IMG/VR virus record: IMGVR_UViG_3300043772_000697
Location: 1 to 41,607 of that record
Strand: one strand, 5' to 3'
Length of the DNA stretch: 41,607 nt
From: a virus
The notes under the pieces are model-generated. The model saw only the letters and a program-made list of their open reading frames with translations. It searched no databases and was not told where the DNA came from. A program made the position numbers and the translations under genes. Below are positions 10,431 through 32,611 of this stretch, piece by piece (position 1 is the first letter of the stretch; the number at the start of each line of letters is the position of its first letter).

Positions 10431-10525
10431 AGGACTTGACCTGAGCTGCCGGGAAGCAATACCAAGGTGGGCGGCCCGATGCTAGCCGGCAGGGCAGGAA
10501 ATACTTGGAACAACTGGGGGAAGGG
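10431..10525. promoter_or_regulatory. Divergent control region between leftward replication and rightward recombination genes
   Basis: 95 bases separating the helicase start (leftward) from the exonuclease start (rightward). For the rightward direction TTGACC at 10436-10441 is followed after 16 bases by AATACC (3/6 match), a weak sigma-70-like candidate. No good leftward -10/-35 pair is evident. No long dyad stands out. Confidence 0.35.
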
Positions 10526-11431
10526 ATGAACAGTCGGGATGTTGTGGTAAGTTCAGGGAGCCGTGATGAACAGCTGCCTATGGACAACGCCGAGTACCAC
10601 GCGCTGACCAGCGTGGTCAGCAAGAGCCACCTTGACCTGGTGGCGCGCAGTCCGTTGCACTATTGGGCGCGGTACGTGGACCCGAACCGCGTGGAGCCCG
10701 AGCCGACCGCGGCCATGCTGCTGGGCACCGCGGTGCATACCCACATCCTCGAGCTGCCCGAGTGGGATGCGCGCTACATCGCGGCGCCGGAGGGCATCGA
10801 TCGCCGCACCAAGGCGGGGAAGGAATTGTGGGCAGCATTCGAGGCCGAAAGCGCGGGCCGTACGGTGATCAGCCGTACCGACGCCGACCTGGTGATGGCG
10901 ATGGGCCGCGCGGTGCATGGCCACCCGGCTGCGGCCTACCTGCTCGGGCAGCCGGGCAAGGCTGAGACCACGCACATGTGGACCGATGAGGCCACGGGGC
11001 TCGAGTGCAAGTGTCGGCCCGACTGGCTGCTCGATGACGGCAGCCTGATCGTGGATCTCAAGACCACCGAGGATGCGAGCCCGGCGGGGTTTAGCAAGAG
11101 CATCGCTGCATACCGCTACCACGTGCAGGCGGCGCATTATTTGACAGGGGTTGAGCGCGCGACAGGCCGCCGGCCTGATCAGTTTGTCTTTTGCGTAGTT
11201 GAAAAGCGCCCGCCCCACGCCGTGGCCGTCTACGCCGCCGATGCGGAGATGGTGGCAGCCGGGCAGGTGATTGCTGCGCGAGACATGCTGTTGCTGGCCG
11301 AGTGCCGCGATGCCGACTACTGGCCGGCCTACAGCGACCAGATCGAGACGATCAGCCTGCCGGCGTGGATGCGCCCGCGCCCCGATGGCAGCGTGCCCGT
11401 GGCACCGGCCGAGCAGATTGAGACGTTCTGA
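10526..11431 (+). CDS. RecE-like PD-(D/E)XK exonuclease
   Basis: About 301 aa from ATG 10526 (GGGGGA six bases upstream). ATG 10580 (MDNAEYHALTS), where family similarity begins, and TTG 10505 are alternatives. It shows the RecE/Exo VIII-type features: YHALTSVVSKSHLDLVARSP, GTAVHTHILE, LECKCRPDWLL with the metal Asp, VDLKTT (D-x-K), and YRYHVQAAHYL with the Gln-containing motif. It degrades one strand at double-strand ends to make 3' tails for the annealing protein encoded downstream. It is the first gene of the rightward operon and its stop overlaps the next start (TGATG). Confidence 0.88.
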   Translation: MNSRDVVVSSGSRDEQLPMDNAEYHALTSVVSKSHLDLVARSPLHYWARYVDPNRVEPEPTAAMLLGTAVHTHILELPEWDARYIAAPEGIDRRTKAGKELWAAFEAESAGRTVISRTDADLVMAMGRAVHGHPAAAYLLGQPGKAETTHMWTDEATGLECKCRPDWLLDDGSLIVDLKTTEDASPAGFSKSIAAYRYHVQAAHYLTGVERATGRRPDQFVFCVVEKRPPHAVAVYAADAEMVAAGQVIAARDMLLLAECRDADYWPAYSDQIETISLPAWMRPRPDGSVPVAPAEQIETF

Positions 11432-11568
11432 TGGACCAGCTCGCCAACCTCATCCTGATTGCGATCACCACGTGGTGCGGCGCGATCTTCATCTCACACC
11501 TGACCGACGCATCGCTGGCGACAGCAGCGGCCGGTTCCTTCTTCATCCTGATGGCCCTCAAGTCATGA
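11431..11568 (+). CDS. Small single-span membrane protein
   Basis: 45 aa, mostly hydrophobic: LANLILIAITTWCGAIFI and then SLATAAAGSFFILMAL, i.e. one or two short membrane spans. It lies between the exonuclease and annealing genes, joined to both by overlapping start/stop codons (TGATG at 11429-11433, ATGA at 11565-11568), which supports real translation. I do not recognise it; its role is unknown. Confidence 0.6.
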   Translation: MDQLANLILIAITTWCGAIFISHLTDASLATAAAGSFFILMALKS

Positions 11569-12257
11569 CCGAATCCACAGCACTGACCACCAGCTCGAGC
11601 GGCTCGGTGTTCTCAGGCATCCAGGCATTCGAGGATGCACAACGCATCGCGAAGGCGCTGGCCAGCTCGACGCTCATCCCGCCTCAGTTCCAGGGGCAGA
11701 ACGGCTTCGCGAATTGCCTGGTGGCGCTGGAGATCGCCAGCCGGATGCGGATGAGCCCGTTCCAGGTGATGCAGAACCTCCACATCATCCACGGCCGCCC
11801 CAGCTGGAGCAGCCAGTTCATCATCGGCCTGATCAACGGCTGCGGCCGCTTCAGCCCGCTGCGCTACGAGATCAGCGGCACCGGCGACAGCCTGGCCTGC
11901 TACTGCGTGGCCACCGAGCTGGCCAGCGGCGCCGACCTGAAAGGGCCGGTGGTGAGCATGGCGATGGCGAAGAAGGAAGGGTGGTCTACCAAGAGCGGCA
12001 GCAAGTGGCAGACCATGCCCGACCTGATGATTCGCTACCGGGCCGCGGCATTCTGGGGCCGGCTCTACATCCCCGAGCTGCTGGTGGGCATCCAGACCGA
12101 GGAGGAGGTGGTGGACGTGCAGCCGGTGACGGTGCGCGCGGCCGAGCCTGAACTGCCCAAGGCAACGCTGGAAGACCTGAACGCCAAGATCAAGCAACCG
12201 AAGCCGACCGTGGCCGCTGAGCCCGTGGGAGAGGATCCGAACGATGACATCTTCTGA
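11565..12257 (+). CDS. RecT-like single-strand annealing protein
   Basis: 230 aa. The core GQNGFANCLVALEIASRMR, FQVMQNLHIIHGRPSWSSQF, AMAKKEGWSTKSGSKWQTM and RYRAAAFWGRLYIPELL is a pattern very common in phage recombinases of the RecT type. It should anneal the 3' tails made by the exonuclease two genes upstream. Pro/Ala-rich low-complexity sequence follows (170-220), and the protein ends in an acidic EDPNDDIF that resembles the SSB C-terminal tip. It begins at an ATGA overlap and ends 14 bases inside the next gene. The family assignment is by motif pattern only. Confidence 0.75.
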   Translation: MTESTALTTSSSGSVFSGIQAFEDAQRIAKALASSTLIPPQFQGQNGFANCLVALEIASRMRMSPFQVMQNLHIIHGRPSWSSQFIIGLINGCGRFSPLRYEISGTGDSLACYCVATELASGADLKGPVVSMAMAKKEGWSTKSGSKWQTMPDLMIRYRAAAFWGRLYIPELLVGIQTEEEVVDVQPVTVRAAEPELPKATLEDLNAKIKQPKPTVAAEPVGEDPNDDIF

Positions 12258-18837: not shown

Positions 18838-19968
18838 ATGAAGCGCGAATGGCAGCCCGATCGGAAGATTTCAGGCCTCGGGTTGATGGTCCTGCCCACC
18901 GGCGTCCGCACCTATTACGTGCGCTACCGCGAGCCCTCCGGCAAGCAGCAGACCCATAAGATCGGCCGGGCCGAGGTGGTCAGCCTGACCATGGCGCGCG
19001 AAGAGGCGATCAAGATCCTCGCCGCTGTCGCCAAGGGCGAGGCGCCGGGCACCGACAAGCAGCTGCTGCGCCAGGGCAAGACCATTCGCGAGCTGTCCGA
19101 AATGGTCACCGAGAAGCACTACGCCACCCGCGTCAGGCCGAGCACCAAGACCGGCTATGCCGTGCTGTGGAAAAACCACATCCTGCCGCGCATCGGCGCC
19201 GAGAAGGTCGCCACGCTGCAGACCATCCAGGTGATCGACATGCTCGAGGAGCTGCCGCGCGGCCAGCAGAATCGCGCGCTGGCGGTGCTGCGCAAGGCGA
19301 TCAATCTGGCCGAGCTCTGGGGCATCCGCGCCAAGGGCACCAACCCGTGCAAGGGCATCCAAGCCAACGGCGAGCGCAAGATCAAGCGCTACCTATCCCG
19401 CGTGGAGCTCGAGCGGCTGCTGGCCGCACTGGATGCGTTCGCCAAGGCCGGCGTGCGGTGGAGGTTCGCGCAGCTGATCCGCCTGCTGCTGCTGACCGGG
19501 TGCCGGGTGCGCGAGATCATGACGGCGCGCTGGGAGTGGCTCGATCAGGATGCAACGATCCTGACGCTGCCCCCCGACGCTCATAAGACCGGCGGCCAGG
19601 ACGATGAGCGCAAGGTGCATCTGCCGCCCGCGGCGAGTCTCATCCTACGAGAGCTGAGACGCAGATCGAACACCGAGTGGATCATCGCCGGCGATGGTGA
19701 CGGCCACCTGATCGGATATTGGTATCTCTGGGACAAGCTGCTCGAGGCGGCCAAGATCAAGAACCTCCGCGTCCACGACCTGCGCCACTCCTATGCGTCC
19801 TATGCCATCACCACCGCGGGCCTGACGCTGCCGCAGGTGGGGGCGCTGCTCGGCCACGCCAGCCCGCAGACCACCGCCCGCTATGCGCACCTGATGGACG
19901 AAGCAGCTGCAGCGATGGCGGCGAAGGTGGCCAGCGCGATCACCCAGCAGAAAGCCCCGGCTGTTTAG
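18838..19968 (+). CDS. int: Tyrosine recombinase integrase
   Basis: 376 aa; ATG 18838 with GGAGA 8-10 bases upstream. Residues 1-65 look like the small arm-binding domain (GLGLMVLPTGVRTYYVRYRE), 80-170 the SAM-like core-binding domain, and 185-376 the catalytic domain: Arg223 (TGCRVREI), Lys250, HDLRH (His313, Arg316), LGHASPQTTARYAHL (His340, Tyr349 nucleophile). It would recombine attP just upstream with a host tRNA-Phe gene. The full active site shows it is probably functional, so the phage should be able to lysogenise, although no CI-like repressor is recognised. Confidence 0.96.
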   Translation: MKREWQPDRKISGLGLMVLPTGVRTYYVRYREPSGKQQTHKIGRAEVVSLTMAREEAIKILAAVAKGEAPGTDKQLLRQGKTIRELSEMVTEKHYATRVRPSTKTGYAVLWKNHILPRIGAEKVATLQTIQVIDMLEELPRGQQNRALAVLRKAINLAELWGIRAKGTNPCKGIQANGERKIKRYLSRVELERLLAALDAFAKAGVRWRFAQLIRLLLLTGCRVREIMTARWEWLDQDATILTLPPDAHKTGGQDDERKVHLPPAASLILRELRRRSNTEWIIAGDGDGHLIGYWYLWDKLLEAAKIKNLRVHDLRHSYASYAITTAGLTLPQVGALLGHASPQTTARYAHLMDEAAAAMAAKVASAITQQKAPAV

Positions 19969-23482: not shown

Positions 23483-25831
23483 TCAGATTCGGGAGAAGGA
23501 TTGCACCCATACAGATGCGTGGACAGTGTTCGTCTCGTTATTGGTGTAATTGCAGCCAAGCAAGGAGCCGGCGATCAGCGTTGAAATTGTGAAGTCGCCT
23601 GAGGCCAAGAAAGCAGTCGCGTTCGGGCTTCCTCTGCTGGTAAATGAAACAGTTGGCATCGCTGTGTTGCCAAAGAAGAACACCTCAAAATACTCAAATC
23701 CGCTAGTGCCGTTACGCATAAATCCAAACACTCTTGCTCCGCCAATAGTTCCCGGATCCGCAGCGTATTCGGCAAGCTTGAAAGTTGCGCTAGGAGCAAT
23801 GCTGAACCGGATCGGTCGTGTTGAAATTGCACCTCTTAAGCCGTCACCGCGCGGAACAATGGCGCTCGCGCTTGTGGAGCTGTCGCTAACTCGATTGACT
23901 GCTACGTTGGCGGCGTTGAGAATGTTGTCATCAGCTAGCACAAGTTCGACAAGTCCTGCGTCCGTGATTCGGATGCAGTCACCGGAAGCCGCGCTATGAT
24001 AAACGCGGTTCTGGCTTACATAAATAGCAGAACTGTTGTTGGTTGTACTGTCATCAGATACTAAAATTCCATAGCCACCTGCCCTTGATGCTGTAATGAG
24101 ATTTGACGCCAGGCGCAGAGTGTTCATTGAGTTGACTTTAATGCCAACTGGGCACTGAATGTTGTTCCCTGTTACCGAAGCGTGTGCGCTAAATCCAAGG
24201 TAAATCCCGTAACCGCCATCTGATCTGCAAGTGTTGTTTGCAATGGTTGCTGTCGAGTTACGATAAAACCCCAACCGGCCAACAGAGATGCCGCCATAGG
24301 CAGGGGTTGCCGAAGAGGGATCTTGCCCTTCGTTGAAATAGAAGCATGTGTTGTTGGAAATGGACACATTGTTTGTGGCAAAAAGCTCAATAGCCGAACC
24401 GTATGTGTGCTGGACAGTATTGTTGGCAACGGTTGCACCTGTATTGTGCATACTGTTAAGGCTACCCTGGGGGTCATAGCCAATCCAGATGCCATCTCGC
24501 AAACCAGCAAAAATACCAGCGTCTTGATACCAACCGCAATACATCAAGCGATTATCGGTCACTGTAATGTTGTAAACTCCGTTCTGATCAAATCCGTTAT
24601 CGCCTGCGTAGGTAAGCGAGTTTCCAGACCAGACGCAGTTGGTGTCTAGGGGCTGAATGGTTTCGCCAACGCTTGGCGTAGCACCCATTGCCACCATCGT
24701 TGTAATCGTCAGGTAGGTGGTGTTATCGACAATCGACTTGATCACGCCTTGCGGAGACGGAAAAGAGCTAGCCCGTGGAATGTAAAATGCTTGCCCAACC
24801 TTTAACGACCTGAGAGATGTGGAGTTTTTGGCAACTGTAAAAGCTGTTGAAGTGGGTGCGACATCATTGGTAACCGTAGGACCTAGGCCGTAACCACCCT
24901 TAAAGCCAAATAGCGTGATCTTATTGAGCGCATTATCCCGAACAGAATTGTTTAAGCCGCAAGACATGTTGATGCCACTGGAGCCAACTGTGTCGAGGAC
25001 ATTGCCTTTGACAAGGATTCCTTCGGAGTTATCGGTGTAGATACCAAAGCCGCCACCAGCCACATTGCCAACAACACCACAGTTTTTGATGTTTGCGTCT
25101 TGGATCACACCGGCTTTGACAGCAGAGAAACTAATTACTGTTGCCGACGTGTTGTTAAGCCCAATGTTTCTAAAACGCCCCCCATACACATAGATGTTTT
25201 CGATCATCCCCGAGGACGAGCCTGCGGAGATTCCATTCCAGTTTGAAAAACTTGTCGAAGTACAGTCAATGCCCCCGTTGTCCTCAAAACGTATGGTTGC
25301 GTTTGAGCCAGTAATGCTAAGCATTGCCGTGCCAGGTGAACCGGCGTTAGCCAGTGGGCTAAGCGTTCCCTGAATGGTGAGGTGAAGATTGCCCGTCGAA
25401 ACAAGCTGGGAAGAAACTTTATAGGTGCCGTTTGGAATCAGTACGTTTTGAGAGGCAGTGATAGCAGCTTGAATGGCCGCCGTATCATTTGCCACACCGT
25501 CTCCAGCCGCCCCAAAGTCCTTAACGGACACCACGTCCTTGAGTTTGCTATCAACCGTCCTCGCAACTGCCCCCGCACCATTCTGAGTGAACTGAAGGCT
25601 GTTGGTGTTCTCACCCGCAGGCCCCAGCGTCACCCATGCGTTGTTCGCTGCATTGCGCTGCTTGAGCAGTGCCGGGGTGCTGCTGGTGTCCACCCAGTAT
25701 TGGTAGGCGAACGTCGTGCTGGGGGCCGATGCGCCGCTGTTGCCGCTGACGATCGCCGCCAAGGCGTTGTTCAGGTCAGCACGGAACGCCTGGCCGGACT
25801 GGTTGGCGATGTTGTAGTCGTGCTGAGCCAT
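23483..25831 (-). CDS. Tailspike with right-handed beta-helix (pectate-lyase-like)
   Basis: 782 aa. The N-terminus (MAQHDYNIANQSGQAFRADL, then NNALAAIVSGNSG) is a virion-anchoring segment common in phages of aquatic bacteria. From about residue 100, VKDFGAAGDGVANDTAAIQA, then IPNGTYKVSSQLV, marks a pectate-lyase-3 fold, followed by many beta-helix turns rich in Asn ladders (TVANNTVQHTYGSAIELFAT, NNVSISNNTCFYF). The end is a beta-sandwich tip. It likely binds or degrades a surface polysaccharide. GC is clearly lower than in the genes around it, as expected for a horizontally exchanged receptor-binding gene. TGATG overlap with gpJ-like gene. Confidence 0.88.
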   Translation of the reverse strand: MAQHDYNIANQSGQAFRADLNNALAAIVSGNSGASAPSTTFAYQYWVDTSSTPALLKQRNAANNAWVTLGPAGENTNSLQFTQNGAGAVARTVDSKLKDVVSVKDFGAAGDGVANDTAAIQAAITASQNVLIPNGTYKVSSQLVSTGNLHLTIQGTLSPLANAGSPGTAMLSITGSNATIRFEDNGGIDCTSTSFSNWNGISAGSSSGMIENIYVYGGRFRNIGLNNTSATVISFSAVKAGVIQDANIKNCGVVGNVAGGGFGIYTDNSEGILVKGNVLDTVGSSGINMSCGLNNSVRDNALNKITLFGFKGGYGLGPTVTNDVAPTSTAFTVAKNSTSLRSLKVGQAFYIPRASSFPSPQGVIKSIVDNTTYLTITTMVAMGATPSVGETIQPLDTNCVWSGNSLTYAGDNGFDQNGVYNITVTDNRLMYCGWYQDAGIFAGLRDGIWIGYDPQGSLNSMHNTGATVANNTVQHTYGSAIELFATNNVSISNNTCFYFNEGQDPSSATPAYGGISVGRLGFYRNSTATIANNTCRSDGGYGIYLGFSAHASVTGNNIQCPVGIKVNSMNTLRLASNLITASRAGGYGILVSDDSTTNNSSAIYVSQNRVYHSAASGDCIRITDAGLVELVLADDNILNAANVAVNRVSDSSTSASAIVPRGDGLRGAISTRPIRFSIAPSATFKLAEYAADPGTIGGARVFGFMRNGTSGFEYFEVFFFGNTAMPTVSFTSRGSPNATAFLASGDFTISTLIAGSLLGCNYTNNETNTVHASVWVQSFSRI

Positions 25832-28800
25832 CAGACGATCTCCCGGCCGTAGCCGATTGCAGTGTAGGTGAACTGGCGGCTCACGGCGGTCCCGCCACTG
25901 TTCCTAAAGGTTACCTGTAATCCCGTGCGCGTCACGGAGCCGATCGTGAAGTAGTCAGCGGTGCCCATGTCGTAGCCCGTCACTCCAATGCTAGGGGGTT
26001 GGTAGAAAGCCTCGGCGAAGGTCACCGAATAGGTGCCGGCGCCACTGGTCAGCGTGGCCGACTGCTCGGTGCGCTGCTGCAGCTCCACCACGCAGCCGAG
26101 TTCGTCGATCAGGATGTTGACGTTGGGATCGTTGCTGGTGGCGATCGTCTTGAACTGGAAGCCACGGCCGCGCACGATCGCGTTGGCGAACTCGCGCCAG
26201 GTGGTCCAGGTGGGGGTGCCGGCCGGGTTGTCAGTGGTGCTGCGCACGTAGAGGCGCGCGTTCACCGAGTCGATGTTGCCGTCGTCGATCTCGGACCAGC
26301 TGTCGATCAGCTCGACCTTCTCATCCCAGAGCCCGGTCAGCAGGATCGCGCGGGTCAGGAAGCGCCGCTGCAAGTTGATGTCGAACACGCCGCCCATGTC
26401 GAGCGTCGAGCCGAACTCGTACTCCCCGTGCTCCGGCGGCAGCGGGCTGTCGATCGTTGTCAGGCCGTCCCAGTTGCCGGCCTGGCCTTCGTTGAGAATC
26501 TGGTCGCCATCCTCAAGCAGCAGGGCATCGCCGTCTTCCTGCGCCAGGTTGTCGTTGCCGGCGCCTGGCGGGGCGAGGTCATCAACCAGCGGGCCGGTGC
26601 TGATCACGAGGCCGTCCAGCTCCTCGTTGTAGAACATGTCCACGACGTTGCCCGAGAACGGCGGCGTCTCCTGATCTTCCGCGTAGGTCTGCACCAGCAG
26701 GCGCGGCAGCGGTGTCGGCAGGTCGGCCACGATCAGCGTGGCGTTGAGAGACCGGCGGCCCCCGTCATCCTCGAACTTGAGGAGATAGGTGCCCTCGAGA
26801 AGCGGCACCTGCTTCTGGGTCTGGTTGCCGGACGCTGCCGGCACGATCTCGATGCTGTCCTCCCAGATGGCGCCGACTAGGAGCGGCGTGTGGCGGATCA
26901 GCACCTTGCCGCCGATCTTCACGTCGAGCTCGGTCGAGGCCGTCCAGCTGATGATCGCGCTGGCCTGGTCGATCGGCACCAGCGAGACGCCGGTCACATC
27001 AGCCGGCGGTGCCGTCTTGCCGAAGACGTTGAAGGTGAGCTTGGCCGGCAACACCGACGAGCGCAGCCCGGCGTTGACGCTGTAGACCTCGATCTCGTAG
27101 CGGCCTGGCGTGGTGTCGAAGATCTCGAAATCGGGCCGCTGCTGCGTGGACGTTGACCAGTTGCCGTTCTGCAGGCGCCAGCGGTAGCGGTACTGGTTGA
27201 CGCCGACCACCGGCTGCCAGCTCACGACCAGCTTGGACAGCACCCGGCCGTTGCTCTCGTAGAGCGCCTCAACGGCCTGCAGGTTGATGGGTGCTTCGGG
27301 GATGACGTTGAGGTCGGTGATGTCGCGCTGCGCCAGCGGCCGGCCGCGCTCGATGTAGTCGTACTTCGAGGCGTTGTAGGCGAGCGCCGTGATCTGGTAC
27401 TGCGCCTGATCCTGCTCGGCCACGCTGAGCACCCGCCACGTTGAGGCTTGGATGTTGGAGGTCTCGTAGATCCAGATGCTGTTCGCGTTTGGAGCAGAAG
27501 GCAGCGCCGATGCGAGCGTCACCGTGGTGCCAGCGATGCTGGCCACGCCGCGGCTCTGCACCGTGCCGTCGGGCAGGATCACCGAAAGAGTGCCGCCTGA
27601 TGGCGATAGATCGGTGGCGTTGTCCACCGTGATCGTGGTGGTGGATGCGGCTGCAATCCGGCCGCCACGACGGGCACCGGCGCGCATCGGGTCGGAGATG
27701 TTGATCACCTGGCCGGGGCGCACCAGCACGCCGGCGTCGATCGAAGCGGTGAACGTCACCACCTCGGATTCGTATTGCTCGGAGTAGAGCAGCCATTCGC
27801 CGATGCGCGAAGCCTGCCCGCGGGAGGTGCAGGCGAAGGCCGACACCTCGGTGGTCACCACGCCGTACTTGGCGATCGCGGTCTGATCCTCGACCACCTC
27901 GTAGGCAATGTCGCGCAGGCTCAGGTCGAGGTAGCTGACCACTGCCACGGTCGGGCGTGTCTTGAGGCTGCCGCCTTGGTAGCTGAACCCGTCATCGGAG
28001 ACGTTGGCCAGCGTGAACAGGTAGGCCGGGTCCGACGGCTTGTCCTGGCTGATGGTCAGCGCGCCGGTGCTCCAATAGGGCATCGCCCGGAAGGTGGAGC
28101 ACAGATCGTTGATGAGCTTGTAGGCCTCCTCGGCGGTCTGGATGTTGACGTTGCAGGAGAAGCGCGGCTCGGTGCCGCCAAAGCCGTTGGGCACCAGCTC
28201 GGAAGCGTACTGGCTCGCGGCATAGAAAGCCCACTTGTCGAGCTGCGCGGCCTGGATGTGATCGCCCAAGCCGTAGCGGGTCGAGGTGAGCAGATCCCAC
28301 AGGATCCAGGCCGGGTCCGAGCACCACTGTGCAGCGCCGAAGCTGCCGTTCCAGATGCCGGCGTAGATCAACCGGCCGGTGGCCGCGTCCACCGTGGCGT
28401 TGTTCGGGATTCGGACCTTGATGCCGCGCACCAGGTAGGTGCGCGCCGGGATCGAGCTGAACTGCTCGGCATCCACCCGCACCGCCACCAATGCGCTGTT
28501 GGGGTAGCGCAGCTTCGCGTAGGTGATCTCGGTGTAGCTTGACCAGCTGAAGGCATTGATCAGCTTTGCGCTGTTGCTATCCGCCGTGATCCGCGTCACC
28601 CGGATGTTCACCGGGAAGGCGCCTGACAGGCTCACCAGGTAGTCGCGCTGATACTGATCACCCGTGCGGCCAGCGATCGTGTCGTCGATCACGGTGCCGT
28701 AGCCGCCGCCGTTGTACTGCACGGCAATCTGCAGGCGCACATCGGTGCCCTCGATGTCGCCCTTGTCAGTGAACAGCTGCAGCGCTGGCACGGTGATCGT

Positions 28801-29619
28801 CACGCGCGCGGCGTTCACCGTGGTGTCGGTAATGCTGCGCACCACAGGCGTGGCCTGCTGCACCGTGACGTTGACGCCAACCTCGTTCTCAACGTCGGCA
28901 GCGATCGGCACGTAGCTCTGGTTCTGCGTGCCGTTGCGCGTGTAGACGAGAATGTTCTGGAAGTTGTAGCTGCCATCCGGGTTCTGCAGCGGCGTGTTGT
29001 CGATGAAGACCGACTTGTAGCCGTCTTTCAGGCCCTCGATCTCGCCTTCGCTGATGAGATCCACCAGGTTGGCGTATTGCGTCGAGTTGAGGCTGTCGGC
29101 TGCCTCAGTTGGCGTGTAGGTTTCGCCGCCGCCGCCGCCTTTGCCGCCGCCGCCACCACCGCCTGCGCCAGCAATGCCGAGGCCGAGGCCGGCGTTGTGA
29201 ACCCGGATCCCACCGGCGATGAAGGTGTGATGGCCCTCGACGGTCAGGTTGTAGACGGTGCCGACGCAGAACTCAGCGCGGTCCACGATCGGACGCAGGT
29301 GGCCGTTCTCATCCACCAGGCAATCGTCGGGGCCGAGCGTGTCGATCTCCACGAAGGCGTTGAACTGGTTCAGCACCCAGTGGTTGGGCGTGGCATCCAA
29401 GACGGCACCGCCCCAGAGGCGATAGCGGTTCACCCGCTCGCCTTCGTGCACGTGCACCTTGAGGATCTTGGCGTGATGCAGCTTGCCGCGATCGTCGAAG
29501 CTGACCACCAGGTCGCCAGGCTGCAGCGCCTCAATCGGACGCTGCCCGTCAGGCGTGCGAATCAGCGTGTGCCCGAGAAAGCATCCGCCACCACCACCAG
29601 CACCGACGATCCTGCTCAT
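25831..29619 (-). CDS. Tail tip / host-specificity protein (gpJ-like) with N-terminal Hint domain
   Basis: 1262 aa. Residues 13-142 are an intein-like Hint domain (separate entry) between Gly-rich linkers. From about residue 167 it is lambda gpJ-like: TPTEAADSLNSTQYANLVDL, ISEGEIEGLKDG, then the baseplate-hub-like domains, SDPAWILWDLLTSTRYGLGD, and fibronectin-III-like repeats (IPEAPINLQAVEALYESNGR, TAPPADVTGVSLVPIDQASA). The C-terminus (IGVTGYDMGTADYFTIGSVT) is beta-rich. Without the Hint part it is about 1130 aa, the size of lambda gpJ (1132). It closes the tail tube and contacts the receptor. ATGA overlap with the gpI-like gene. Confidence 0.95.
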   Translation of the reverse strand: MSRIVGAGGGGGCFLGHTLIRTPDGQRPIEALQPGDLVVSFDDRGKLHHAKILKVHVHEGERVNRYRLWGGAVLDATPNHWVLNQFNAFVEIDTLGPDDCLVDENGHLRPIVDRAEFCVGTVYNLTVEGHHTFIAGGIRVHNAGLGLGIAGAGGGGGGGKGGGGGETYTPTEAADSLNSTQYANLVDLISEGEIEGLKDGYKSVFIDNTPLQNPDGSYNFQNILVYTRNGTQNQSYVPIAADVENEVGVNVTVQQATPVVRSITDTTVNAARVTITVPALQLFTDKGDIEGTDVRLQIAVQYNGGGYGTVIDDTIAGRTGDQYQRDYLVSLSGAFPVNIRVTRITADSNSAKLINAFSWSSYTEITYAKLRYPNSALVAVRVDAEQFSSIPARTYLVRGIKVRIPNNATVDAATGRLIYAGIWNGSFGAAQWCSDPAWILWDLLTSTRYGLGDHIQAAQLDKWAFYAASQYASELVPNGFGGTEPRFSCNVNIQTAEEAYKLINDLCSTFRAMPYWSTGALTISQDKPSDPAYLFTLANVSDDGFSYQGGSLKTRPTVAVVSYLDLSLRDIAYEVVEDQTAIAKYGVVTTEVSAFACTSRGQASRIGEWLLYSEQYESEVVTFTASIDAGVLVRPGQVINISDPMRAGARRGGRIAAASTTTITVDNATDLSPSGGTLSVILPDGTVQSRGVASIAGTTVTLASALPSAPNANSIWIYETSNIQASTWRVLSVAEQDQAQYQITALAYNASKYDYIERGRPLAQRDITDLNVIPEAPINLQAVEALYESNGRVLSKLVVSWQPVVGVNQYRYRWRLQNGNWSTSTQQRPDFEIFDTTPGRYEIEVYSVNAGLRSSVLPAKLTFNVFGKTAPPADVTGVSLVPIDQASAIISWTASTELDVKIGGKVLIRHTPLLVGAIWEDSIEIVPAASGNQTQKQVPLLEGTYLLKFEDDGGRRSLNATLIVADLPTPLPRLLVQTYAEDQETPPFSGNVVDMFYNEELDGLVISTGPLVDDLAPPGAGNDNLAQEDGDALLLEDGDQILNEGQAGNWDGLTTIDSPLPPEHGEYEFGSTLDMGGVFDINLQRRFLTRAILLTGLWDEKVELIDSWSEIDDGNIDSVNARLYVRSTTDNPAGTPTWTTWREFANAIVRGRGFQFKTIATSNDPNVNILIDELGCVVELQQRTEQSATLTSGAGTYSVTFAEAFYQPPSIGVTGYDMGTADYFTIGSVTRTGLQVTFRNSGGTAVSRQFTYTAIGYGREIV
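29194..29583 (-). other. Hint (intein-like / BIL-type) domain inside gpJ
   Basis: 130 residues from Cys13 (GCFLGHTLIRTPDG) to His141-Asn142 (GIRVHN), with the block-B motif TPNH (Thr77, His80). All cis-cleavage residues of a Hint domain are present, but the residue after Asn142 is Ala, not Cys/Ser/Thr, as in bacterial intein-like domains that cleave rather than splice efficiently. No homing-endonuclease insert. Both flanks are Gly-rich. Confidence 0.9.
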
Positions 29620-30191
29620 CCGGCCACCTGCACAGTGTCAATGCCGGCCGAGATCACCACCGAGCCCACCAGGGTCTCACCGTAGACGATCGGCACAGGC
29701 AGGCCCTGGCGGCTGGTGTTCTGAATGCCTGAGAAGCTGTAGCTCTTGCGTGGATCTTTCACCGTGTCGCTGGTGGAGCCTGGCGGCACTGTTCGCGGCA
29801 CGGGCGTGAGCAGCTGCGCGACGCCGCCGAGCACCAGGCTGGCGCCGACGCCCACCAGCAGCTGGACGCCGAGAGCGCCGATGCCTGGCACCAAAAAGCC
29901 AACGGCCAGCAGCGCAACGCCCGCAATGATCCGACCCACCGCGCCAGCGCCGGCGACGACGGGAACGATCTTGATTTCCTGCAGGCCGGCCGGGTCGTGC
30001 AGTTCATCCACGGCCAGGTCGTAGCTGCCCACGCTCACCCGGTAATGCTGGTCGACCATGTGCTGCTCCAGCTGCGGGAAGTTGGCCAGCAGGAAGCGCA
30101 CGGCCTCAGCCGCGCTGCTCACCTCGGCCTCAAACTTCCGGCGCTTCAGGAACTTTGCCAGGCGCCCGTAGATGCGGATCGTGCGCAACAT
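29616..30191 (-). CDS. Tail assembly protein (lambda gpI family)
   Basis: 191 aa from ATG 30191, chosen because it overlaps the K-like stop (TGATG); the frame runs 18 codons further up without support. [20 protein letters not shown], then FLLANFPQLEQHMVDQHYRV, is a ubiquitin-like fold as in lambda gpI; the middle (GRIIAGVALLAVGFLVPGIG) is a Gly/Ala/Val-rich hydrophobic stretch, and the C-terminus (SGIQNTSRQGLPVPIVYGE) is the conserved tail. It is needed to assemble the tail tip with gpJ. Not part of the mature virion in lambda. Confidence 0.9.
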   Translation of the reverse strand: MLRTIRIYGRLAKFLKRRKFEAEVSSAAEAVRFLLANFPQLEQHMVDQHYRVSVGSYDLAVDELHDPAGLQEIKIVPVVAGAGAVGRIIAGVALLAVGFLVPGIGALGVQLLVGVGASLVLGGVAQLLTPVPRTVPPGSTSDTVKDPRKSYSFSGIQNTSRQGLPVPIVYGETLVGSVVISAGIDTVQVAG

Positions 30192-30916
30192 CACGCCAGC
30201 CCTAGCCTCCCTGCATCGTAATGGCGCAGCCTGCGCCCGGTGCATTTCATCAGCCAGCCGCCGTAGAGGTCACGGCTGCTGAGCCGGCCGCGGATGTGAT
30301 GGAGCACCAGCTGGTCGCCGATGTAGATGCCGACATGGTTCAGGCCCGGCCCGCTGATGCTCATCAGCACCGCATCGCCCGGTTGCAGCTCATGGTTTTC
30401 GTCGAGCTCGCGGAATCCGGCATCGCGCCAGAACCGATCGAACAGCGGCTCGGCCTCGAACTGCTCCGGCGTCAGTGGGCGCTCCCAGTCCGGCAGCTGC
30501 AGGCCGTGCTCGGCGTACCAGTCCCGCGTCAGCGTCCAGCAGTCGGTGAGCCCCCACACCCATTCGCGGCCGATCAGGGGCGCCTTGTAGCCGGTGGGGC
30601 GCAGCTCGGGACTCCATGCCTCGGTCTTCGGGTTGACGATCCACCAGGGGAGGCCGGTGCGCTCGATCGCCACCAGATCGGCTTGGCTGGGCTGCGGCGG
30701 CGTGACCGGGTGGCTGTGGACCACAGCGAGGATCTCGCCTGCATCCTCGGCCGCGGCGTAGTCGATCGGGTCGAGGATGAACTGCTCAGTGCCGGCCGCC
30801 AGGTTGCGGCAGGGCCAGTAACGCTCGCGGCCCTTGACCACCAGCAGCAGGCCGCAAGCCTCTCGGGGATCCTCGGCCTGGGCGTGCTCGAGTGCTGCTG
30901 TGCGCCAGTCGGTCAT
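30191..30916 (-). CDS. Tail tip protease/hydrolase (lambda gpK family: JAB + NlpC/P60)
   Basis: 241 aa from ATG 30916 (ATGA overlap with the L-like gene). Residues 1-110 are a JAB/MPN metalloprotease: Glu19 (REACGLL), [14 protein letters not shown] (His67, His69, Ser77, Asp80). Residues 115-240 are an NlpC/P60 domain: [12 protein letters not shown] with Cys126, [11 protein letters not shown] with His194, and His206 near the end. Lambda gpK has the same two domains. The peptidase may process tail proteins during assembly and the NlpC part may open peptidoglycan on infection. All key residues are intact. Confidence 0.93.
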
Positions 30917-31635
30917 GTGAAGAACGTACCCACACCCGGATAGCTTCCGAACGGCAGCTCGGCAGTGGCGCCGAATCTTGCCTTGCAGCTGCTCAGCCGC
31001 TTGCCGCACACGTCAGCCGCAAGGGTGGCCACGGATTGATCATTCTCGTTGAAGTAGCTGGTGCCCACGTAGCCGCACTCGGCTGAGCGGTACTTCCACT
31101 GGCAGATGTTGCTGATGCACTGGCGCTTCGGAGCCCGCACGCCGGCGAGATCGAAGGAAGCCGCCAGCTCGAACTCCACCACGTCGCGCGTCTCGGTGGA
31201 CTTGCGGTCCACGTAGTAGATCTCACGCGGGAACTCGGCTGTCGGGTCCGGCGTGCCGTAGGGGTTCACGCTGCCGGGGAAGTTCACCGCGTCGAGGTAG
31301 CGGGCCAGCGTGCGGATGCGTGTCACCTTGGCGCCCGACAGGCCGTCAGGCAGGCTCAGCAGCAGCGCTGTGATGGTGCCCAACACGTTACTGCAGCGGA
31401 TTTTCGGCCGCGGCAGCGTGCCCTTGCCCTCATAAGTGAAGCCATCAGCCTCAATCGAAAACCGGATGTAGCTGTTGCCAGCCCAGACCACTTCGCCGTT
31501 GGCGTTGAGGTTGACGCCGGCGTGGAAGCGGTAGGTGTCGTTCACGCCGTGCTGCAGCGTGTTCAGCTCCAGCACGAACAGCTCGATGACAGCGCTGGGC
31601 GCAATCGCCTGAAGATCTGAGACGGGAACTGCCAT
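30913..31635 (-). CDS. Minor tail protein (lambda gpL family)
   Basis: 240 aa. N-terminal beta-rich half ([40 protein letters not shown]). The C-terminal half has the Cys set [17 protein letters not shown]...[13 protein letters not shown]; in lambda gpL the matching cysteines hold an iron-sulfur cluster. It forms part of the tail-tip ring under the tape measure end. The order H, M, L, K, I, J is preserved, with ATGA overlap to K. Confidence 0.92.
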
Positions 31636-31637
31636 CG

Positions 31638-31973
31638 CTACGGCTCAAACACCTGGCGGAACTTGGCGCGGATCGTGTTGAAGTTGCAGGAGCGCAACGT
31701 CACCTGCCAGCTCTCGCACACGTACTTGCCGGCGCTGCCACGGGGTGGCGTCCAGTCAAACGATTCCACGCCGCCGCGGGCGTCCAGGAACGCGGTGATC
31801 AGATCGCGCTCAGAGTCGCTGCGCTCGCTGAAGGTTAGGTCCCACTCTTTCGGGTTGGTGTTCAGGCCGAAGCGGATGCGCTGCTCATAGCCGTCGCCGG
31901 CCTGGAACTTGCGCACCCGAGGCTGGCTGCTCTCGGTGGCCTCAAACGAGGGTGTATAGGCGAACGTACTCAA
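31638..31973 (-). CDS. Minor tail protein (lambda gpM family)
   Basis: 111 aa (SQPRVRKFQAGDGYEQRIRF, GLNTNPKEWDLTFSERSDSE, FDWTPPRG), a clear gpM-type protein of the tail tip. It starts at TTG 31973, which overlaps the stop of the homing-type endonuclease (TTGA). No in-frame ATG is available downstream before conserved sequence, so the usual start was probably changed when the endonuclease gene came in. Confidence 0.9.
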   Translation of the reverse strand: MSTFAYTPSFEATESSQPRVRKFQAGDGYEQRIRFGLNTNPKEWDLTFSERSDSERDLITAFLDARGGVESFDWTPPRGSAGKYVCESWQVTLRSCNFNTIRAKFRQVFEP

Positions 31974-32611
31974 TGCGCCCTCCCAGCAAAGACCTGCTCA
32001 AATGGTAGGCCGCGCTGCAGGCGGGCCAGCGCTGTGCTTTTGGGGACTCCTAGCTGCCTAGCCCACTCAGTTGCGCAATGCGTTTCGCCGTCATGGCAGA
32101 TAAGCACGTTGTTTCGCTTGTTTTGCATCTGTTCCTTCCAAGTAAGCGCCCATCGGCAGTTACCCGGCTCGTAATTGCCGTTTACATCGATTCGCTCTAG
32201 GGACGCACCATTGGGGCGGTCCCCCATGTCTTGCAGGAAATACTCAAAACCATCTAGCCACCGCTGACATACGTTGATGCCACGGCCGCCGTAATAGTTG
32301 AAATGCTTGTAATTTGCTTTTGTGCACCTGCCGACCATGTGCCTGTAGGCCGTGTACTCGGGGCTCCGTGACATGCCATGGCGCGTTGCGACACGAGCTG
32401 CGTTTTCCCTTCTTAAGCATCCACAGCTCTTTGTGTCACCAGATCGCAGGCATCTAGTGGTCGTATCAGTGGTCCCGCCGCAATCACACCTGCATGTCCA
32501 AACAGAGGCCTTATGCCTGTTCTGTTCTTTGTAGGCAACCACAACTAAACGCTCGAAGCGCTGCCCAACGAGATCAGGACCTTTTCTCATGCATGGTCGA
32601 ACGTGCTGCAT
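31970..32611 (-). CDS. Homing-type endonuclease (zinc ribbon + HNH-like)
   Basis: 213 aa from ATG 32611 (ATG 32590 is an alternative). Residues 10-70 have the zinc ribbon TCRCDCGG...KSCGCLR. Residues 85-170 hold the nuclease-like region: YTAYRHMVGRCTKANYKHFN, YYGGRGINVCQRW, LERIDVNGNYEPGNCRWALT, as in free-standing phage homing endonucleases. The C-terminal part (CATEWARQLGVPKSTALARL) is a small HTH. It sits between tape measure and gpM, where lambda has nothing, and its GC is lower than its neighbours: an inserted selfish gene. Confidence 0.85.
   Translation of the reverse strand: MQHVRPCMRKGPDLVGQRFERLVVVAYKEQNRHKASVWTCRCDCGGTTDTTTRCLRSGDTKSCGCLRRENAARVATRHGMSRSPEYTAYRHMVGRCTKANYKHFNYYGGRGINVCQRWLDGFEYFLQDMGDRPNGASLERIDVNGNYEPGNCRWALTWKEQMQNKRNNVLICHDGETHCATEWARQLGVPKSTALARLQRGLPFEQVFAGRAH

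Follow-up and report, generated by a model that had tools for sequence, protein, structure and literature searches.

According to a review (PMC7765530), BIL domains occur at diverse positions, within variable parts of bacterial proteins that are themselves not conserved. A-type BILs that lack a nucleophile at the +1 position mainly cleave, and amine attack on the thioester can ligate (PMC7664689, PMC4031507). In phages, inteins have been described in TerL, RNR and dCTP deaminase (PMC3556154, PMC6293099, PMC7156551). Here we examined an intein-like Hint domain at the front of a gpJ-like tail-tip protein from an uncultured virus (IMG/VR record IMGVR_UViG_3300043772_000697). The whole stretch of DNA analysed, 41,607 nt, is referred to as the window.

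A Hint domain in front of gpJ

The gpJ reading frame is open along all 1262 aa (Table 1). Its relationship to lambda gpJ begins at residue 158 (phrog_31, 9.5e-252; PF24801; PF13550). The gene order is TMP-M-L-K-I-J, as in the lambda gpJ family; gpK and gpI were assigned by phrog_30 and phrog_32, and gpL and gpM by position and by recurrence beside gpJ. The original prediction had described a complete Hint domain with Cys13, TPNH and His141-Asn142, and its coordinates and residues proved exact. It had also placed the domain immediately ahead of gpJ, between Gly-rich stretches and with alanine at the +1 position, all of which was borne out, as was the claim that the remainder is the size of lambda gpJ: 1120 aa follow Asn142, and the lambda record gives 1132 aa.

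Table 1. Features of the gpJ locus and of the rest of the window
Feature	Position	Strand	Evidence or remark
gpJ-like tail-tip/central fibre gene, 1262 aa, N-terminal Hint	25831..29619	(-)	phrog_31 9.5e-252, PF24801, PF13550
Leader MSRIVGAGGGGG, residues 1-12, predicted to be released	29584..29619	(-)	ATG overlaps the gpI end
Hint domain, residues 13-142	29194..29583	(-)	family, profile, AlphaFold and Foldseek matches
Cys13 (Hint Cys1), N-terminal nucleophile	29581..29583	(-)	202/204 distinct relatives
TPNH, residues 77-80, block B	29380..29391	(-)	TPNH in 197/204
His141-Asn142, predicted C-terminal cleavage via Asn cyclisation	29194..29199	(-)	no exception in positionally aligned Hints
AGLG, residues 143-146; non-nucleophilic +1 Ala143, predicted new gpJ N-terminus	29182..29193	(-)	AGLG in 198/204
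Second Gly-rich stretch, residues 147-167, LGIAGAGGGGGGGKGGGGGET	29119..29181	(-)	second copy of gpJ N-terminal motif IxGAGGGG
gpI-like tail assembly/plug protein	29616..30245	(-)	phrog_32 4.6e-48; overlaps gpJ start
gpK-like protein, JAB + NlpC/P60; start provisional	30191..31009	(-)	PF14464, PF00877, phrog_30
HNH endonuclease gene, between TMP and gpM	31970-32611	(-)	phrog_374, phrog_3377
Integrase	18838-19968	(+)	
ExoVIII/RecT pair	10505-12257	(+)	

Profile and structure searches agreed on the identity of the domain. The isolated region matched PF13403 (2e-7), PF07591 (1.2e-6) and TIGR01443 (1.1e-5). A profile search of the PDB gave the C. thermocellum BIL as best match (5.8e-12) and the gp41-1 intein at 3.5e-10. 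AlphaFold modelled the Hint core with a pLDDT of 93-98 and disordered Gly tails on either side, and Foldseek matched it to BIL2 (1e-9), the gp41-1 intein (TMt 0.92) and the C. thermocellum BIL (TMt 0.86), with a Hedgehog autoprocessing domain also among the matches. In a 470-residue AlphaFold model the Hint is a separate domain, its arrangement relative to gpJ being modelled without confidence (pTM 0.52). The Hint contains no endonuclease. The leader MSRIVGAGGGGG is disordered in the model, and the same leader is found in gpJs without a Hint.

Two features of the neighbouring genes were noted. The gpI protein contains GAGAVGRIIAG, which resembles the RIxGAG motif flanking the Hint on both sides, and gpK, whose gene adjoins gpI, carries a JAB domain. 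A connection between the Hint and the HNH endonuclease gene was considered and rejected; matches to that gene occur in 7/267 gpJ loci, 4 with the Hint and 3 without.

The closest matches to TerL and endolysin were from Synechococcus phage S-CBS3 (48% and 71% identity, respectively). When a genome collection was scanned for the Hint, one close match was obtained, with 88% identity, to L153, a short contig belonging to a cyanobacterial MAG; as to prophages and named hosts, the other 11 matches in the collection were distant or partial. These comparisons point to picocyanobacteria as the probable host. An integrase is present in the 41.6-kb record, and the phage is therefore probably temperate. 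The record looks temperate, yet only the one close match to its Hint came from the genome collection.

A family of gpJ proteins with an N-terminal Hint

When IMG/VR was scanned with the Hint, the scans yielded 463, 480 and at least 504 relatives; VHNAG was demanded in the pattern of one scan and not in the others. Among all fetched loci, 204 distinct complete Hint domains were counted. Cys1 is kept in 202/204, the exceptions being L381, which has Gly, and L308, which is broken upstream. HN is kept in 204/204, a count whose pattern fixes the last Asn; when Hints were taken by position there were again no exceptions, and HN conservation rests on this alignment. Block B reads TPNH in 197 relatives, TANH in 4, and TSNH, TPNQ and TPNN in one each, so that its His is kept in 202/204. 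The +1 residue is alanine in 202/204, including the window, and serine in 2/204, and AGLG follows Asn in 198/204. The domain is 130 aa long in 203/204. With the catalytic residues fixed in 204 distinct relatives, a chance ORF or a frameshift is excluded.

Several relatives depart from the common pattern. L368 and L401, with Ser at +1, could splice. L292 has a 15-aa deletion, L381 has lost Cys1 to Gly, and L265 and L376 have lost the block B His; these are natural loss-of-function candidates. A second cysteine (Cys100 in the window, Hint Cys88, 29320-29322) is invariant in the 203/203 Hints scored, and is possibly a redox partner of Cys13 or merely structural.

Relatives with at least 70 aa past the Hint were examined for gpJ. 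The strict gpJ motif is present in 175 and absent in 35; 20 of these 35 were inspected by eye and all are gpJ, with variant motifs of the DLLCEGEI type. Judged by sequence, every relative readable beyond the Hint has it at the front of gpJ, and, as read from these loci, the Hint-fronted gpJ is carried by many uncultured freshwater and marine phages.

Selection on the Hint

The GC content of the Hint DNA spans 27-68% across relatives. Synonymous codons are used freely at every catalytic residue, and the +1 alanine is encoded by GCT (77), GCA (62), GCC (56) and GCG (6). The median NG86 dN/dS of close pairs is 0.13. Because synonymous codons vary freely and dN/dS is about 0.13, Cys1, TxNH, HN and the +1 Ala are under purifying selection. 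Mean identity is 70% in the Hint vs 57% in the gpJ body. The -1 Gly of the Gly-Gly-Cys junction and Cys1 match HN in degree of conservation. Were the C-terminal cut all that mattered, conservation of Cys1 would be unneeded, which counts against pure C-terminal cleavage; its near-absolute conservation means that selection also acts on the N-terminal thioester step.

Presence, absence and exchange of the Hint

In a gpJ sample blind to the Hint, whose pattern covers one gpJ motif only, the Hint was found in 6/107 scorable gpJs among the matches listed. The remaining 101/107 have a plain short tail, mostly Gly-rich. A tree built from 267 gpJ bodies requires at least 30 changes in Hint presence, and 18 of the changes are forced by well supported branches; shuffling the labels on the same tree gave 87 changes vs the 30 observed. 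The Hint is dispensable, since most gpJs (101/107 scorable among the matches listed) and very close relatives do without it. The module has also been exchanged between phages, because two pairs of gpJs that are 94% alike bear Hints only 64-65% alike.

In near pairs of which one member has the Hint and the other lacks it, the sequence to the left and right of a single point in the Gly tail is homologous and aligns. What is inserted there measures about 417 nt (the Hint plus about nine residues) and is bounded by short GAGGGG repeats.

The predicted length of mature gpJ was compared with the native length in 33 near pairs, which share ancestry and lack phylogenetic independence. The Asn-cleaved gpJ tail minus the native tail of the Hint-less partner has a median of 0, and the spliced tail minus native +13. 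Over the whole set the tail medians are 41 for cleaved, 37 for native (39 for Gly-type tails) and 54 for spliced gpJ. Because of the shared ancestry, and because duplication of the Gly motif by the insert may partly create the match, the agreement in length supports rather than proves C-terminal cleavage.

Proposed processing of gpJ

On balance we favor an autoprocessing, non-splicing Hint of the A-type BIL kind that occupies one site in gpJ across a large group of uncultured siphophages and would excise itself, releasing mature gpJ that starts with AGLG. Of the readings considered, the original prediction that self-cleavage frees mature gpJ has the best support, with catalytic residues intact, Ala at +1 in 202/204 and a product of native length, and needs one amendment: the conserved Cys1 would also permit two cuts or BIL-type ligation. 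In the order of events that we infer, the Hint would fold after translation, between the two disordered Gly tails. Cyclisation at His141/Asn142 would cut ahead of Ala143 and free mature gpJ; the tail at its N-terminus (AGLGLGIAGAGGGG...KGGGG) would match Hint-less gpJ in length and make-up. Cys13 and the TPNH block would turn the upstream Gly-Cys bond into a thioester, and the 12-residue leader would also be cut off. Alternatively, as happens in BIL domains, the free amine may partially re-join the leader to gpJ. As to purpose, our guess is that delayed exposure of the gpJ N-terminus serves as a check on tail-tip assembly. More tentatively, and perhaps rather unlikely, gpJ may be a self-activating precursor whose Hint cap holds the N-terminal tail and cuts once assembly or a redox cue permits it (besides Cys1 the Hint has the invariant Cys88); if so, many environmental phages have a maturation switch built into their tail-tip protein.

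Other fates of the domain were weighed against self-excision. Ala at +1 blocks ordinary splicing. Splicing without a +1 nucleophile would proceed through a Cys1 thioester, Asn cyclisation and attack by the Ala amine to give MSRIVGAGGGGG-AGLGLG... gpJ, making the Hint a traceless mini-intein. A-type BILs have been proposed to ligate by this route, with cleavage products dominating (PMC4031507). The conservation of Cys1 and the -1 Gly, equal to that of HN, and the Ser at +1 in L368 and L401 are in keeping with such a reaction; we nevertheless consider it unlikely, as its product would exceed native gpJ by 13 residues and Ala is fixed in 202/204 despite Ser and Thr being one base change off. The conserved Cys1 and Gly-Gly-Cys junction, together with the Hedgehog autoprocessing domain among the fold matches, would also suit a Hog-like transfer, in which not water but a small molecule or some other protein of the tail accepts the leader thioester. 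Such a transfer appears very improbable, for an acceptor-binding region is lacking, gpJ directly follows, and HN, which Hog domains do not use, is intact.

The Hint might stay in the virion as a structural or binding domain of the tail tip, its active site a relic or triggered by infection. Flexible Gly-rich linkers flank it, AlphaFold places it as a separate domain (pTM 0.52), and indels are almost absent from its 130 residues, a sign of tight packing or of a partner. A scaffold, however, needs no selected Cys, His, Asn and +1 Ala, residues held across a GC range of 27-68%, and we give this explanation little credence. The Hint could instead be a selfish or decaying mini-intein, spreading by recombination at the Gly repeats, useless to the phage and maybe still cleaving. 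Its patchy spread (with the gpJ tree requiring 18 changes or more), the Hints just 64-65% alike in near-identical gpJs and the rare broken copies (L292, L381 and L265) would fit, but degenerate copies are very rare, the Hint has no endonuclease and the HNH gene is unlinked to it (4 loci with the Hint, 3 without). This too seems quite improbable.

Comparison with known systems

The original prediction held that Hint domains in phage tail tips are known from sequence only, a statement for which we found no confirmation. The gpJ-Hint architecture was not found in the literature searched, which covered few subscription journals and preprints and so is weak evidence, and self-cleavage of gpJ was not found in the lambda tail literature searched. 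The cultured phages searched had no Hint in gpJ, merely distant Hints in other genes. The best structural match in BFVD is UniProt A0A218MKA3, a 1016-residue entry named 'putative gp62' from an uncultured virus (E 4e-15, 38% identity over 166 columns); from this match it is possibly an undescribed member of the family.

The protein body and the surrounding gene order are those of lambda gpJ and other tail-tip proteins. With A-type BILs (C. thermocellum BIL, 2lwy; Tetrahymena BUBL1 BIL2, 6y75/6tmm) the gpJ Hint has in common a fold of about 130-140 aa, Cys1 and blocks A and B, a C-terminal His-Asn, the lack of Cys, Ser or Thr at +1 (Ser in 2/204) and the lack of an endonuclease. Among bacterial Hints, the nearest found resemble A-type BILs; they belong to RTX-like proteins from Roseibium (with Asp at +1) and Trichormus (with Glu at +1). 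Unlike BILs, the gpJ Hint occupies a single site in a conserved phage structural protein, with a fixed +1 Ala, a conserved AGLG and a near-constant length. Class 1 mini-inteins (gp41-1, the Mtu RecA splicing domain) share its fold and blocks A, B, F and G, but they need Cys, Ser or Thr at +1, which is missing in 202/204 gpJ Hints (Ala143 in the window), and their insertion sites differ from the disordered Gly tail used here. In the Hedgehog Hog domain a sterol-recognition region follows the Hint and the C-terminal Asn is unused, whereas in our protein gpJ follows and HN is intact.

If the domain cleaves, a tail-tip protein is matured by a Hint, and the Hint, instead of being selfish or processing a toxin, has a fixed structural role; this would suggest that tail assembly includes a checkpoint in these siphophages, whose hosts are probably picocyanobacteria. 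The natural family, compact, length-invariant and with a fixed +1 Ala, is useful for studying Hint chemistry tuned to cleavage. The chemistry and the fold are already known from the systems above, while the papers and cultured phages searched show neither the location in gpJ nor the fixed +1 Ala nor a conserved role there.
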